Both the position numbers and the translations under genes were made by a program. From an uncultured Methanomicrobiales archaeon (lineage in GTDB: Archaea > Halobacteriota > Methanomicrobia > Methanomicrobiales > Methanospirillaceae), in assembly GCA_903926075.1 (NCBI GenBank), contig CAIYHQ010000111.1:1-64000 (forward strand): a DNA stretch of 64,000 nucleotides, in the 5' to 3' direction. This document shows positions 24,158 through 31,525 of this stretch, piece after piece. Below the pieces are notes generated by a model. The model did not search any database and had not been told where the DNA came from. It was given only the letters and a program-made list of their open reading frames with translations. The number at the start of each line of letters is the position of its first letter. Position 1 is the stretch's first letter.

Positions 24158-24400
24158 ATGAATGTGATGAATATCAGGACGTGGATTGTTTTCTATGTTT
24201 TTTGTTTTGTCGCGATGTTTGTCTCAGTCGATTTTCTTTATCAGGGAATGTGGAAATGGGTAAGAATGGGACTATTTAATCTGGTACTCTGTTGTAATTT
24301 TCTTCTTATGATTTCTGAGATAAAATATTTTGGTGAACGCAAAAAGATGATGAAAAATTATTCTCCCAGAGAAAAATTACAAGAAGATATGGATGAGTGA
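24158..24400 (+). CDS. Small two-helix membrane protein
   Basis: An 80-residue protein with two predicted membrane helices (WIVFYVFCFVAMFVSVDFL and MGLFNLVLCCNFLLMI) and a charged cytoplasmic tail (RKKMMKNYSPREKLQEDMDE). A GAGGGG Shine-Dalgarno precedes the ATG. It is 9 bases upstream of the next unknown gene and probably co-transcribed with it, near the chemotaxis genes. No family recognised. Confidence 0.6.
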   Translation: MNVMNIRTWIVFYVFCFVAMFVSVDFLYQGMWKWVRMGLFNLVLCCNFLLMISEIKYFGERKKMMKNYSPREKLQEDMDE

Positions 24401-24409
24401 GGATTTCAG

Positions 24410-24997
24410 ATGCATAGCGATCTTCCGACGTTCTCAATAATAAACCAGGGAGAAGTATGGAAGAGATACCAGACAATAATAGAAATGATTCAGCATATTG
24501 AAAAACAGAATTTTATTCTCGAGTCTATGAAATCCGAATATTCAATCCCTGATCAGACCCGGCACATCGTTCTCAATTCCCTCTCTGAAGATTTAAAAGA
24601 AAATAAAAAGATGTTTTTTGAATTTCTGAGAAACTTTATAACATTTAGTATGAGAGGGACCCAGAACCTCGATATTGAGTTTTCTCTAACTTTAAAAGAA
24701 GGGATACCATTTGTCGTCGATTCTACAGTGCTTGTGCTTGAAGGGCGACGCGAGAGCATTCCTGCGGAGATTGGTCAGAGATTTGGCGAGGAAATATTAA
24801 AAAGCACTGGGAAAAATTTTCTCTCTGATATTATTGCTTTTTATAAAGGAGAAGAGATCAAATATGACAAGATGTTTGGAGCTAATTTTGAACGTTGCTC
24901 TCTTCAGCTGCTGCAGGAACTCTATCCACTGCAATGCTATTACGTCAAAATCAGGTTACCTGCCCAGTCATTGGTTGATCACGACATTACCATATAA
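24410..24997 (+). CDS. Conserved-looking soluble protein of unknown function
   Basis: A 195-residue protein with a clean start (GTGAGG 7 bases before the ATG). Residues 1-85 are helical (GEVWKRYQTIIEMIQHIEKQ, DLKENKKMFFEFLRNFITFS). The C-terminal part mixes strands and helices (IPAEIGQRFGEEILKSTGKN ... CSLQLLQELYPLQCYYVKIR). I recognise no domain. It follows the two-helix membrane protein and converges on cheR with a 12-base gap, so the pair may belong functionally with the chemosensory genes; that is inference. Confidence 0.6.
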   Translation: MHSDLPTFSIINQGEVWKRYQTIIEMIQHIEKQNFILESMKSEYSIPDQTRHIVLNSLSEDLKENKKMFFEFLRNFITFSMRGTQNLDIEFSLTLKEGIPFVVDSTVLVLEGRRESIPAEIGQRFGEEILKSTGKNFLSDIIAFYKGEEIKYDKMFGANFERCSLQLLQELYPLQCYYVKIRLPAQSLVDHDITI

Positions 24998-25009: not shown

Positions 25010-25819
25010 TTATGGCTTGACAAAAATTTTGTGCATTGGCCGGTATGGTTTAAAAAGACTTTCTACCTCACGACCTAGGTATTCAGACATGCCCATTATA
25101 TAAAATCCACCGGGTGCAAGTCCCTCATTTATTGTTGTAACAAGTAAATTTTTCTGCTTTTCATTGAAATATATTGTCACATTCCGACAAAGAACGAGAT
25201 CAAGGAATCTTGCCACCGGAATGCCCCGCATAAGGTCATGTGACTGAAACCTGATGAATGGTTTTAATAACGATTTGACCTCAAATTTTGTATCTTCTCT
25301 CTCTGCAAAGTATCGTTTTAAATAGACATCACTAACATTCTCAAGAGCCTGCTTTTCGTAGATGCCATCCCTCGCTTTTTTTAAAATCTCTTCATCGATA
25401 TCCGATGCATAAATGAGTGCGTCCAGGTCTCTGTGTGTTGATTTATATTCTGCAAGGAGAATTGCAAGAGAATACGGCTCTTCTCCTGAAGAGCATCCGG
25501 CACTCCAGATCCTGATACGGTTTTTCCCGCGTAAAATTTCAGGTAGTATCTCTTTTTTTAATGTATCAAAAATTTCAGGATCACGAAAAAACTTTGTTAC
25601 GTTTATTGTGAGAGCATTCCTTAAAAGCTCCATCTCAGTCTTATTACCAAGCAATACCTGTTGATATTCTTTATAATTCTGGGTCTTAGTTGCATTCATC
25701 CTGGATAGAATGCGTCTTTTTATATAATCTTCCTTATAACTTGCACATTGCATATTTAAGAGGCGCTCTATGGTATTTCTCAACGAATAAAAATCATCAT
25801 CATTACTAACTTTTATCAT
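25010..25819 (-). CDS. cheR: Chemotaxis methyltransferase CheR
   Basis: A 269-residue SAM-dependent glutamate methyltransferase for chemoreceptors. The N-terminal helical domain (ERLLNMQCASYKEDYIKRRI) is followed by the catalytic domain with SAM motif IWSAGCSSGEEPYSLAILLA, the acidic ALIYASDIDEEILKKAR strand end, LDLVLCRNVTIYF and a receptor-contacting beta-subdomain. Complete. It lies downstream of the PAS-CheW fusion (95-base gap), same strand. The methyl-accepting receptors themselves are not in the window. Confidence 0.95.
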   Translation of the reverse strand: MIKVSNDDDFYSLRNTIERLLNMQCASYKEDYIKRRILSRMNATKTQNYKEYQQVLLGNKTEMELLRNALTINVTKFFRDPEIFDTLKKEILPEILRGKNRIRIWSAGCSSGEEPYSLAILLAEYKSTHRDLDALIYASDIDEEILKKARDGIYEKQALENVSDVYLKRYFAEREDTKFEVKSLLKPFIRFQSHDLMRGIPVARFLDLVLCRNVTIYFNEKQKNLLVTTINEGLAPGGFYIMGMSEYLGREVESLFKPYRPMHKIFVKP

Positions 25820-25914
25820 TTATTAGGCCCTATTTCCCTATTTCAGTTCATTCTAAAAAAATGAACATATAATAACAATTCCTTGTACTTAATCGTTTTT
25901 TTGGATGAAAAAGG

Positions 25915-28014
25915 TTATTGAAATTTCGAAAGTCCATTGATAAGTCCATGCATGTTAAGAAAAATGACGAGATCCTTTTCTTTTTTCTTATCATCGGAAG
26001 AAATACCATCACTTGAATCCATCATTATGATTCCCTGAATATATGCCTGTGAGGAGATATTTTCAAAGCTCTCTCCGAGTGCTTCGATCTGACTTATTTT
26101 AATAGAATTTACACTATTTACTTCATCAACAATGACTCCGAGGTTTTCACCTTCAGTCGCTTCGTGTGAAAGCACTATTATCTTTTTCTGGATGTCTTTT
26201 CGAATATCTGGAATTCCAAGTATTGTATTGATATTTATGATATTAGTGATTTCACCCCTTAAATTGATAATTCCATAAAGATATGAGGGCGCCCCAGGTA
26301 TTGGGGTTATTGCCATCATCTCAACTATTTCGCGAGCCATAAAGACATCTATTGCATATTTGTCGCCCCCTATTTCAAATTCTACAACATCAAGACTGTT
26401 ATCCTTAATAGAGAGGTCAACTTTATTTTTATTTTTTATTTCCTTTTCAGGTTTCAAATCCGGGAGAAGTGAGATCTTCTGGTCTGGAGAAGGAAAGCTT
26501 TGAGATAGGGCCTCGCCAACTTGCTCAATAGGAGGTGTTTTTATTTCGTTTAGTAATTTTTTGAGTTCTTTAATATCAGTTTCTTTTTCATTAAGCTCTT
26601 CTCTTAATTTCTGAATCTCATTCTCCTGATCTGGAGTTATACCAGGAACTATTTTAGAAATATTCCCGATTTCTGATTTTAAAGATATATTTTCATCGAA
26701 AATAGATTTTATCTTTAATTCCTGCTCTTCTATCTGACTTTTCTTTAAAGAAAGATCGAGTGATAAATCTTTTATTTTTGTTTCGTTTTGATTCTCCTGA
26801 TTCTTCAATCTCTGTTTCAGTTCAAGAATCGTTTCTTCACTTTTTCTTTTTACTTCTTCTGACTTTTTAGTAAGCTCCAGAAGGTCCTGTTCCTTTTCGT
26901 TGATCTCTGCAATATACCTGGCTTTTAGTGTGTCACTTTCAATGCTGAGTTTTGCTATCTCTTCACGCTTGTCAGTAATAAGTTTCTTGTTTTGAAGGGC
27001 AAGTAAATCAAGACGTTCTTTGAAAATCCGTGTCTCTTTCTCATTTCCAGAAATCTTATAATAGCCTATAACAGACTTTTGAATTTCATTATTCTCGTTT
27101 ACAATTGGAACAAATATTTCTGAAAATGTCTCTTCTGCTCCATCAAATTTAAGACTTACATCACGCTTTAATGGCATAATTATAGAAGGTGGCCTTGAAA
27201 TATTGTTGAATGGAGGGACTGAGTAAATATTTTTTCCTGATAACTCGTTATCCGGACTAACAAGTTTTTTAAACTCATCATTTATTTCAATAATTTGAAA
27301 ATCCGGATCAATTACAACCATTGGCACAGGATTTTCGCCTACAAATTTCTGAAAGCCAAATATTGCTGAGTTTAGTTCTTTCTCGAACTTTTTTGTCTGC
27401 GATTCAAGAACTCTGATATTAGAACGATCATGGAAAACAAATAAACCCAGTGTCTGACCTTCTACACCATTTGAGAGAGGTACTGCCTCCAATTGAACAA
27501 ATCGCTCCTGACCATTCTCATACAAAACCTTGAGCTCAGCAAGTGCCCGGTTTTTTCCACGATATATCGATGAAGGGTCATCTCCGGATTCTGTCTCAAT
27601 AGAGCAATGGGTCACACCTTCTTCACTAAGTTCGTCAACGGTTGAACCCATCAGATTGGCATACGCCTCATTCAATGCATGGACATGAGAATTATTGTCC
27701 TGAAGGACCATCGGGACCGGATTCTTTGAAAATAATTCTTCACTCATTCTGGACCGCTCAATTGTCCTTTCCATCTCCTCGACAAAGATATTGATTAAAT
27801 TAACAAGAGGCTGCAAAAGAGGGATAACGAGATCGCTCTCAAGCTTCCTGCTTCTATCTCTTTGTTCCAAATAAGTTACTATTACGCTGATACTATCAGT
27901 AATCTCACTTTCAAGGTTATTTATGGGTTTTTTCCCGGGTCCTCCCGTAAAAAGTGCCTTCCTTCCAGGCTTTTCTGTCATCTCATCATCTCTCACTTCG
28001 GCTATCTGAAACAT
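25915..28014 (-). CDS. PAS-PAS-coiled-coil-CheW fusion protein
   Basis: A 699-residue cytosolic protein. Residues ~40-90 are helical. Two PAS domains follow (~95-190, with NPVPMVLQDNNSHVHALNEA; ~235-340, with NPVPMVVIDPDFQIIEINDE). A long coiled coil runs ~345-480 (heptads such as KQRLKNQENQNETKIKDLSL). The C-terminal CheW domain spans ~545-690 (VVEFEIGGDKYAIDVFMARE, LYGIINLRGEITNIININTI). There is no transmembrane or MCP signalling hairpin, so it is not a receptor. It should plug into receptor-CheA arrays through CheW while sensing through PAS. It lies between a ParA-like ATPase and cheR, reminiscent of CheW-containing array-positioning proteins. Confidence 0.9.
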   Translation of the reverse strand: MFQIAEVRDDEMTEKPGRKALFTGGPGKKPINNLESEITDSISVIVTYLEQRDRSRKLESDLVIPLLQPLVNLINIFVEEMERTIERSRMSEELFSKNPVPMVLQDNNSHVHALNEAYANLMGSTVDELSEEGVTHCSIETESGDDPSSIYRGKNRALAELKVLYENGQERFVQLEAVPLSNGVEGQTLGLFVFHDRSNIRVLESQTKKFEKELNSAIFGFQKFVGENPVPMVVIDPDFQIIEINDEFKKLVSPDNELSGKNIYSVPPFNNISRPPSIIMPLKRDVSLKFDGAEETFSEIFVPIVNENNEIQKSVIGYYKISGNEKETRIFKERLDLLALQNKKLITDKREEIAKLSIESDTLKARYIAEINEKEQDLLELTKKSEEVKRKSEETILELKQRLKNQENQNETKIKDLSLDLSLKKSQIEEQELKIKSIFDENISLKSEIGNISKIVPGITPDQENEIQKLREELNEKETDIKELKKLLNEIKTPPIEQVGEALSQSFPSPDQKISLLPDLKPEKEIKNKNKVDLSIKDNSLDVVEFEIGGDKYAIDVFMAREIVEMMAITPIPGAPSYLYGIINLRGEITNIININTILGIPDIRKDIQKKIIVLSHEATEGENLGVIVDEVNSVNSIKISQIEALGESFENISSQAYIQGIIMMDSSDGISSDDKKKEKDLVIFLNMHGLINGLSKFQ

Positions 28015-28038
28015 GTGTTCTCTTCACCTTACCATTAT

Positions 28039-28881
28039 TCATTGCCATCTCACTATATTTTCAGTAATTTTTTTATATGCCAGGGCACCAGGTGATTCCT
28101 GGGCAAATTGTTCAAGCGGCAGACCTACCTGTTGAGATTTGGGTATGAGGGGGTCATAAGGAATATAATATACCCCTTTAAACTGTCGCCGAACCTCTGT
28201 TTCGATCTCACTTTGCAGGGATACTACCTCCTTGTTTAATTCTTTTTTCCCCCTCTTTCTTATTAGATTTAGTAGTCTCTCCCAAAATTCATTTTCAATC
28301 TCAGGATTGTCCCAGCGGGTGAGGATTGCCATCTCAGCATTGACCTGATAACCAGTATATTCGCGAATATCATTGAAGATCTCAAGGAGAGCAGTCAGTC
28401 CGTGAAGACCAAAAACACCGGCGTCAAATGTTACAACTATATGATCTGCAGCGATGAGACCATTTAGGACAAATTGCCCCATGCTCGGTGGAGTGTCAAT
28501 TAATATCCAGTCATAATTTTCTTTGATTTTCTCTGTTGCGATTTTTAATATCTCAAATCTGCCTTCTGTTTCATATAAAAAAGGCTCTGCACCAACAAGA
28601 TCAAGTGACGAGGGCACCAGGTCAATTCCACTTTTTGTCTCGAGGATTATCTCTTTGAGACTCATATACGGAAAATCGGCAACATTACTCATGTAAATAT
28701 CATAAATGCTCTCTTTGCAGGTCAATGGGTTTATTCCAAGACCGGAGGTCGCATTTGCCTGGGGATCAGTATCTATGACAAGCACTTTTTTTCCCAGGTT
28801 TAAGAGCGATCCGGCAATGTTGAGACACGATGTTGTCTTGCCGGTCCCGCCTTTATGATGGGCAAATGTGACGATTGAGAT
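28039..28881 (-). CDS. ParA/Soj-type ATPase with non-canonical or lost start codon
   Basis: The frame encodes the full ParA N-terminus FAHHKGGTGKTTSCLNIAGS (deviant Walker A) and VLVIDTDPQANATSGLGI (Walker A'), then DWILIDTPPSMG. The first ATG/GTG/TTG in this frame is a GTG at 28785, inside the Walker A' strand. Homologues begin M-x-x-IVTFAHHKGGTGKTT, which puts the start at ATC 28879-28881, preceded by GGGTGG four bases upstream and by an in-frame TAG beyond. So either AUC is used or the ATG has been lost or misread. The product would be ~280 residues. ParA ATPases position plasmids or chemoreceptor arrays; the chemotaxis neighbours favour the latter. Confidence 0.75.
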   Translation of the reverse strand: MSIVTFAHHKGGTGKTTSCLNIAGSLLNLGKKVLVIDTDPQANATSGLGINPLTCKESIYDIYMSNVADFPYMSLKEIILETKSGIDLVPSSLDLVGAEPFLYETEGRFEILKIATEKIKENYDWILIDTPPSMGQFVLNGLIAADHIVVTFDAGVFGLHGLTALLEIFNDIREYTGYQVNAEMAILTRWDNPEIENEFWERLLNLIRKRGKKELNKEVVSLQSEIETEVRRQFKGVYYIPYDPLIPKSQQVGLPLEQFAQESPGALAYKKITENIVRWQ

Positions 28882-29018
28882 GGTTCCACCCTACGATTCA
28901 TATATGAGTAAGAAACATTTTAATCTATCTTTGAAAAAAACATCACTCAGTCAAGAGGAAAAAATGTATATTCAGTGACTGAAAGATTTTTATTTTCTTT
29001 GTGCCCATACACATTACA

Positions 29019-30649: not shown

Positions 30650-31525
30650 CTAACCCTCTACAATTTTTACGAGAGCTTCCATAATATTGTCTACACACTT
30701 CCAGGTCGGATTTTCTGATTTTAGGAGGATAAATGGTCTACCTTCATCGCCTGCTTTTCTCATTTCAGGGTCAAGCGGGATACTTCCGAGAAATGGAACA
30801 TCCATCTCATGAGATATTGCTTCTCCTCCACCGGACCCAAAAATATCTATCTCCTTATGACAATGGGGGCAGAGCATACTGCTCATATTTTCAACTACAC
30901 CAAGGACCGGGAGACCGAGTTTCCTTATGAACGATATTGCCTTTCTTGAATCTATTGTAGAGACATCCTGAGGTGTTGTTACAATCACCGCACCGCGTAC
31001 ATTTGGTGCCATCTGGGCGACAGTGAGAGCCTCATCGCCAGTACCTGGTGGCAGATCTACGACAAGGTAGTCAAGTGGCCCCCAGTTGACCTCTTCAAGG
31101 AACTGGTGTATCGCTGACATCTTCATTGGACCTCTCCATATAACGGGAGTGCTGGGATCAGGTAGCAGAAATGCCATTGAAATTACCATCAGATTACCTG
31201 TGACTCTGACAGGTTCAATCATATTTCCCTCTGCACCGAGGTTACTACTTTCTATCCCCAGCATCTTTGGGATATTGGGGCCATGTATATCAAGATCAAG
31301 AATTCCGGTTCTTTTCCCTTTGTTCGATAAGGCGTATGCGAGGTTTACGGAAACAGTAGATTTACCTACTCCACCCTTACCACTAAGAACAAGTATTACA
31401 TGCCTGACATCTATTTTGGCCGTTTTTGGAGGACATTCAGGTTTAGATCCCCTTTCATTACTTGCACAGTCTGAACACTCACCTGAACATTCCTGACTTG
31501 ATTTATCATTTGAGGACTTTTTCAT
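30650..31525 (-). CDS. Mrp/NBP35-type Fe-S carrier ATPase
   Basis: A 291-residue P-loop ATPase of the MinD/Mrp class. The deviant Walker A SGKGGVGKST is at 48-57. DLPPGTGDEALTV and the C-terminal CPHC (MLCPHCHKEIDIFG) follow; the latter ligates a bridging Fe-S cluster at the dimer interface. An N-terminal Cys-rich segment (Cys13, Cys17, Cys20, Cys31) resembles the NBP35 N-terminal ferredoxin-like motif C-x13-C-x2-C-x5-C only loosely. The role is delivery of [4Fe-4S] clusters to apo-proteins. It is followed without a gap by a 103-residue gene. Confidence 0.93.
   Translation of the reverse strand: MKKSSNDKSSQECSGECSDCASNERGSKPECPPKTAKIDVRHVILVLSGKGGVGKSTVSVNLAYALSNKGKRTGILDLDIHGPNIPKMLGIESSNLGAEGNMIEPVRVTGNLMVISMAFLLPDPSTPVIWRGPMKMSAIHQFLEEVNWGPLDYLVVDLPPGTGDEALTVAQMAPNVRGAVIVTTPQDVSTIDSRKAISFIRKLGLPVLGVVENMSSMLCPHCHKEIDIFGSGGGEAISHEMDVPFLGSIPLDPEMRKAGDEGRPFILLKSENPTWKCVDNIMEALVKIVEG

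Follow-up and report, generated by a model that had tools for sequence, protein, structure and literature searches.

We analysed a 64,000-nucleotide stretch of DNA (the window) from an uncultured archaeon of the order Methanomicrobiales, whose genome comprises 3.14 Mb in 134 contigs, and found a locus encoding a ParA-type ATPase, a 699-amino-acid (aa) protein ending in a CheW domain, and a CheR methyltransferase. The locus is probably an archaeal ParA-based system to position and partition chemosensory arrays. On its sequence, the best reading is a system like bacterial PpfA/TlpT, in which a nucleoid ParA would position arrays, here via a CheW-type adaptor. Since the ParA comes with a scaffold bearing a conserved docking-like tag, the placement of sensory clusters in these archaea is probably like that in some bacteria.

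At the gene level, parA and the 699-aa gene are separated by 24 bases, and the latter and cheR by 95 bases. The trio is flanked by plus-strand genes, for a TPR protein at one end and an unknown protein at the other, and thus forms a three-gene unit beginning with ParA. The 699-aa protein presents an N-terminal peptide, two PAS domains, a coiled coil, and CheW, in this order. A Pfam search found no signalling domain of methyl-accepting chemotaxis proteins (MCPs) in it, which ruled out a receptor role, and no membrane span was detected (maximum hydropathy 1.57). Its C-terminal domain is a true CheW, matching the CheW of core signalling units in Foldseek (TMt 0.86). Pfam, coordinates, and hydropathy confirmed the original prediction of a ParA-type ATPase next to a CheW-tailed coiled-coil protein without receptor features.

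We sampled 199 Methanomicrobiales genomes (one per species, partly incomplete), using mechanical gene calls and search seeds from the source genome, and found ParA in 104 of them (E <= 1e-20). In the 95 loci that were parsed, the genes next to ParA were chemosensory: MCP or coiled-coil-CheW, CheW, and CheR. The commonest order was ParA>MCP>CheR (23 loci), together with ParA>MCP>CheW>CheR (22), ParA>coiled-coil-CheW>CheR (12), and ParA>MCP>CheW>MCP>CheR (8). The CheW-tailed partner is the minority form, and most relatives use a soluble receptor. Found again in about 95 parsed relatives, the ParA-partner linkage is far from chance. A scan of genome contigs with a single ParA query retrieved two Methanogenium loci only; Methanogenium cariaci is a species of the order that matched by sequence.

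ParA co-occurred with CheA (96/104 genomes with ParA vs. 35/95 without) and with archaellin (102/104 vs. 54/95), in Fisher tests ignoring phylogeny. Only one CheR match was found in 43 of the ParA genomes; it neighboured ParA in 38 of these, lay on a different contig in 4, and was distant in 1, and this distribution connects the locus to the main chemotaxis pathway. No ParB was found beside ParA, either in ten upstream neighbours searched by Pfam or among the next genes, which were chemosensory in the parsed loci. The possible array-positioning system of the original prediction is supported by a ParA without ParB that accompanies CheA and archaellin, and by a partner with a ParA-binding-type peptide. 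The pair that it proposed to look for in genomes with motility genes recurs across the order, and a consistent ParB partner, which it had set against its own proposal, was not seen in these loci.

The proteins downstream of ParA share an N-terminal segment, [K/R]-P-G-R-K-A-L-F. Exactly one carrier was found in 91 of the 95 parsed loci, whatever module follows the peptide and whether the carrier gene comes first or third after ParA; in some g4 genomes, the peptide is missing from the first protein and present in the second receptor encoded at that locus. Of the four exceptions, L136 and L141 presented N stretches, and L173 and L174 were at contig ends; L174 does show GRRGLF, overlooked by the domain filter. 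Among 88 distinct carriers, G and R were found in 88, L in 87, F in 86, and a basic residue two positions before G in 80, and conservation drops off a few residues past the peptide. In 19 aligned CheW-tailed carriers, G17, R18, L21, and L258 were the sole invariant residues outside and before CheW.

A chance origin of the peptide was rejected. Every N-terminal match among 1,499 distinct open reading frames (ORFs) of the fetched loci was a carrier or a carrier fragment, and beyond residue 60 there was no match in 437,993 positions. This count replaced a loose regular-expression control, which matched random frames. When genomes were searched for GRKALF as a DNA pattern, the matches were near the control level, the pattern being too degenerate to discriminate. 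Membrane anchoring was also rejected: the 91 carriers have no clear membrane span (4/91 marginally over a hydropathy of 1.6, top 1.83; membrane MCPs 2.98-3.13).

The peptide region of the 699-aa protein is predicted to be disordered (AlphaFold pLDDT about 31-36 for residues 1-30). ParA/MinD activators, TlpT among them, have a common short basic N-terminal peptide (PMC7993993; see also PMC10241942), and the bacterial partners ParB, PomX, and TlpT bind ParA via such peptides. The archaeal peptide looks like a known ParA docking peptide, and we assign it a putative docking role. The N-terminus of Helicobacter pylori Spo0J (PDB 4umk), which begins MAKNKVLGRGLADIF, is a look-alike of the GRKALF peptide, not a demonstrated homologue. 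The peptide drifts to GRRGLF/GRKGLF in L085, L086, L088, L095, and L174 (mostly genus g12), the loci with the most divergent ParA (40-45% identity), a pattern suggestive of co-evolution.

Outside Methanomicrobiales, a phylum-wide sample (E <= 1e-35) detected ParA only in family f10 (7 genomes), and a search of this family found it in 9/51 genomes. In the readable loci, the gene after ParA begins M..KIRKPGRKALFEDVE or nearly so. The sole intact locus (L196) reads ParA > motif-polyHAMP-MCP > CheW > MCP > ... > CheB > ... > CheA; thus, ParA, peptide, and full chemosensory cluster travel together. Judging by these N-termini, a peptide of the ParA-binding type is conserved in two distant archaeal lineages. 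Most contigs of the family (L177-L183, L195) break within the motif-polyHAMP receptor gene, probably because of its internal repeats, and genome G383 has two copies.

The window ATPase belongs to the ParA/Soj subfamily of deviant Walker A ATPases. Its Walker A box is intact (HHKGGTGKTT) and invariant across 50 aligned ParA sequences, its PDB profile matches were Soj/ParA, and its structure model (pLDDT 92) matched Soj best in Foldseek (TMq 0.77-0.82), with MinD lower (0.67-0.69). The MinD type was discarded, with the fold nearer to Soj and the archaeal MinD profile at 69 bits, below its cut-off of 202. The source genome has a single strong AAA_31 match (3e-47; runner-up 5e-10). A segregation ParABS system was rejected, with no ParB found and no other strong ParA-type match across the genome, although parS sites were not searched. 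A second P-loop ATPase in the window (30650-31525) is of the NUBPL/Mrp iron-sulfur carrier type and unrelated to the positioning ParA.

The ParA frame is complete in the window and has no ATG, GTG, or TTG from the in-frame stop (28891-28893) to Walker A; its first standard start, GTG 28785, would remove the Walker A box. The likely start is the ATC given in Table 1. In 102 distinct loci, the codon seven positions ahead of HHKGG was ATT (52), ATC (19), ATA (12), ATG (10), AGC (8), or ACG (1), the AGC loci being those of family f10, where ATG stands two codons earlier. No ATG, GTG, or TTG precedes Walker A in 37 of the 93 loci of the order, and their start-position codon was ATT (21), ATA (11), ATC (4), or ACG (1). 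In the 93 loci, GGTG starts 10 bases (38 loci) or 9 bases (29 loci) upstream of this codon. As controls, none of 46 CheR and none of 60 CheW genes lacked a standard start.

Assembly error was rejected as the cause, since the missing standard start recurs in at least 13 single-contig genomes. Across the order, parA is probably translated from ATT, ATC, or ATA (once ACG), usually with an upstream GGTG. Some loci, such as L102 with a stop directly before ATT, leave on their letters only another non-standard codon or frameshifting as an alternative to ATT. In the f5 group, an in-frame GTG that overlaps the Shine-Dalgarno sequence may be an alternative start, and four loci have TTG one codon later. 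If real, an isoleucine-type start would be the reason why automatic gene calling is expected to yield this ParA without its P-loop. A review of archaeal initiation lists AUG, GUG, and UUG as start codons, with no mention of AUU (PMC7531240); if real, the parA start would be a conserved archaeal start codon outside these three.

Chemotaxis genes of the source genome were assigned by sequence start, position, and family searches. Contig C74 contains an archaellum operon with CheY, CheB, CheA, CheD, and a CheC-like gene, in which ORF calling detected neither CheW nor CheR; C50 and C111 each have another CheA-like cluster, and C70 has MCP/CheW pairs. The closest matches to the CheW domain in the 699-aa protein are CheWs from ParA loci of other species (up to 49%) and, in its own genome, those of C69 (47%) and C70 (42%); the CheWs of the C50 and C111 clusters are more distant (27-29%). 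Of the 13 typed MCPs, 3 are membrane-spanning and 10 lack membrane spans, including 3 that are truncated at contig ends; therefore, soluble receptors able to form a cytoplasmic array are present. None of the 13 typed MCPs has the peptide. The third chemosensory cluster of the genome also includes a 341-aa protein with two CheW matches (L074:16804-17829).

In known ParA systems, ParA-ATP dimers bind DNA non-specifically, and multivalent cargo with activating peptides releases them and climbs the gradient. In the system proposed here, ParA-ATP dimers would coat the nucleoid; the peptide, in many copies on the array, would dock on ParA and stimulate ATP hydrolysis, and the array would follow the ParA gradient, being spaced and inherited at division. 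Array integration would come from the CheW domain (MCP in relatives) and ParA contact from the peptide. In the source organism, the adaptor would be inserted by its CheW domain into the arrays of the many soluble receptors, the PAS domains may supply a redox or ligand signal, and the ATC start would keep ParA scarce relative to the cargo. Gene content, peptide, and predicted fold were read from sequences and models; from them we infer binding, ATPase stimulation, and movement.

For the evolution and expression of the system, we lean towards a combined proposal: that a portable ParA-docking peptide has been shifted between soluble receptor and CheW scaffold while the same ParA was kept, in the order and in the distant family, and that the parA of the order is read from a conserved near-cognate start codon (AUU/AUC/AUA), an infC-like device that would keep ParA scarce versus its cargo. 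This points to an evolution of ParA-driven cargo positioning in which a single short peptide is grafted onto one array component or another. For array placement and inheritance in archaea beyond haloarchaea, the locus offers candidates for the motor, the cargo adaptor, and the docking peptide of eight residues.

Several points weigh against array positioning by this ParA. CheA is present without it in 35 genomes, and therefore positioning by ParA is not essential; 8 ParA genomes have no CheA match, some of them incomplete, and the association statistics for ParA, CheA, and archaellin are uncorrected for phylogeny. Moreover, the peptide resembles the LGRGL-type peptide of ParB, yet a PDB sequence search gave no match or alignment.

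Other explanations fit the data less well. ParA could work with the array proteins mainly as a polarity or signalling factor, like FlhG or MinD4 for flagella or archaella, and not as an array-spacing transporter. Although the near-universal archaellin of the ParA genomes, the effect of MinD4 on both arrays and archaella in Haloferax (PMC11588486), and a Ras-like small GTPase divergent beside the locus in some genera speak for such a role, we consider it unlikely: the genes linked to ParA are those of receptors, CheW, and CheR, not of the archaellum, the ATPase is Soj-type and not MinD-type, and the docking-type peptide is confined to array components. It is more doubtful still that the peptide itself binds DNA and tethers arrays to the nucleoid, with ParA only loosely related. 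It is basic, and Myxococcus FrzCD is reported to bind the nucleoid by a positively charged N-terminal tail (PMC5716589); however, the invariant G-R-x-A-L-F pattern of the archaeal peptide, with conserved hydrophobics, is no diffuse basic tail, and this peptide is always at a ParA locus. Finally, an ordinary chromosome or plasmid segregation ParA placed by chance beside chemotaxis genes, to which the closeness to Soj might point, is the least credible and is already contradicted by the linkage kept in about 95 loci and a distant family, by no ParB beside ParA in the neighbours tested, and by the N-terminal motif on the chemosensory partner.

Table 1. Features of the ParA locus in the window and the basis of each assignment
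Feature	Position	Strand	Basis
ParA/Soj-type ATPase, 280 aa read from ATC	28039-28881	minus	Pfam AAA_31 E 6.2e-47
ATC, probable non-canonical parA start codon	28879-28881	minus	No ATG/GTG/TTG before Walker A; same position ATT/ATC/ATA/ACG in relatives
Shine-Dalgarno-like GGGTGG upstream of parA ATC	28886-28891	minus	GGTG 9-10 bases upstream of same codon in most relatives
ParA-partner scaffold, 699 aa, soluble	25915-28014	minus	Pfam CheW 3.9e-26, PAS_9 9.7e-8; structure model
KPGRKALF peptide, residues 15-22 of 699-aa protein	27949-27972	minus	Conservation among carriers
First PAS domain, residues 99-198 of 699-aa protein	27421-27720	minus	Pfam search
Second PAS-like domain, about residues 222-320 of 699-aa protein	27055-27351	minus	PAS_8 1.9e-5; model fold
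Long helical coiled-coil region, residues 325-492 of 699-aa protein	26539-27042	minus	Model secondary structure
CheW domain, residues 540-692 of 699-aa protein	25939-26397	minus	Pfam; Foldseek
CheR methyltransferase, 269 aa	25010-25819	minus	E 1.9e-56

Apart from these features, Met12 (ATG 27979-27981) may be the true start of the 699-aa protein, and several relatives begin MTEK.GRKALF. Two small plus-strand ORFs (24158-24400 and 24410-24997) adjoin the trio, with no Pfam match for either. In the relatives, the Ras-like small GTPase gene, a possible polarity partner, was located at L101:9375-9851 and L103:7848-8396, and L105 has a gene of similar size. Genome G079 presents two ParA loci (L104, L105) with their own carriers, METIGRKALFEAY vs. 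KRPGRKALFTG, possibly two insulated systems; genome G151 likewise holds two ParA loci.

In the open-access literature, we found no paper describing this locus or peptide, nor containing the motif letters. Cytoplasmic arrays have been reported in Methanoregula (PMC7534058, citing Briegel 2015), and ppfA homologues without parB in the che operons of 77/206 species (PMC2829493), a set that may include archaea. In archaea, MinD-dependent array positioning is known from Haloferax, where MinD4 affects arrays (PMC11588486). MinD4 (and MinD2) of Haloferax volcanii resemble the window system as archaeal ParA/MinD-family ATPases affecting chemosensory array position, whereas MinD4 is of the MinD type and oscillates along the cell, and the ParA of the window is Soj-type and has an array partner encoded beside it. 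To our knowledge, MinD4 and MinD2 have no dedicated array partner.

ParB/Spo0J, SopB, MinE, PomX, and McdB are, like the archaeal carriers, otherwise variable cargo proteins with a short basic peptide at the N-terminus; however, the archaeal motif is shorter (GRKALF), and the cargo would be a chemosensory array, in archaea. The original prediction took bacterial ParC/ParP, a system of Vibrio, as its comparison. The window locus resembles it in layout, with a ParA relative and an adaptor whose N-terminus would contact the ATPase and whose C-terminal CheW domain would enter the array. However, the AIF domain of ParP is reported to be nearer to CheA-P5 (PMC5706961), whereas the window domain is a true CheW accompanied by PAS sensors, and ParP partners the LID domain of CheA, with the polar protein HubP.

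PpfA/TlpT, which partitions the cytoplasmic chemoreceptor cluster of Rhodobacter sphaeroides, is the closer model, with a Soj-type ParA and soluble receptors, while the CheW-tailed partner is ParP-like in layout. Both clusters include CheW and CheR, and nucleoid-based partitioning of protein arrays was proposed there (PMC3964821), as we propose here. The archaeal locus family has ParA adjacent to a soluble chemoreceptor, CheW, and CheR, and in the window the partner is the CheW scaffold. The archaeal system differs from the bacterial one in the invariant KPGRKALF peptide that marks its partner and in a parA that apparently starts with an isoleucine-type codon; the partner in the window also differs in being a scaffold of PAS, coiled coil, and CheW that lacks a receptor signalling domain.

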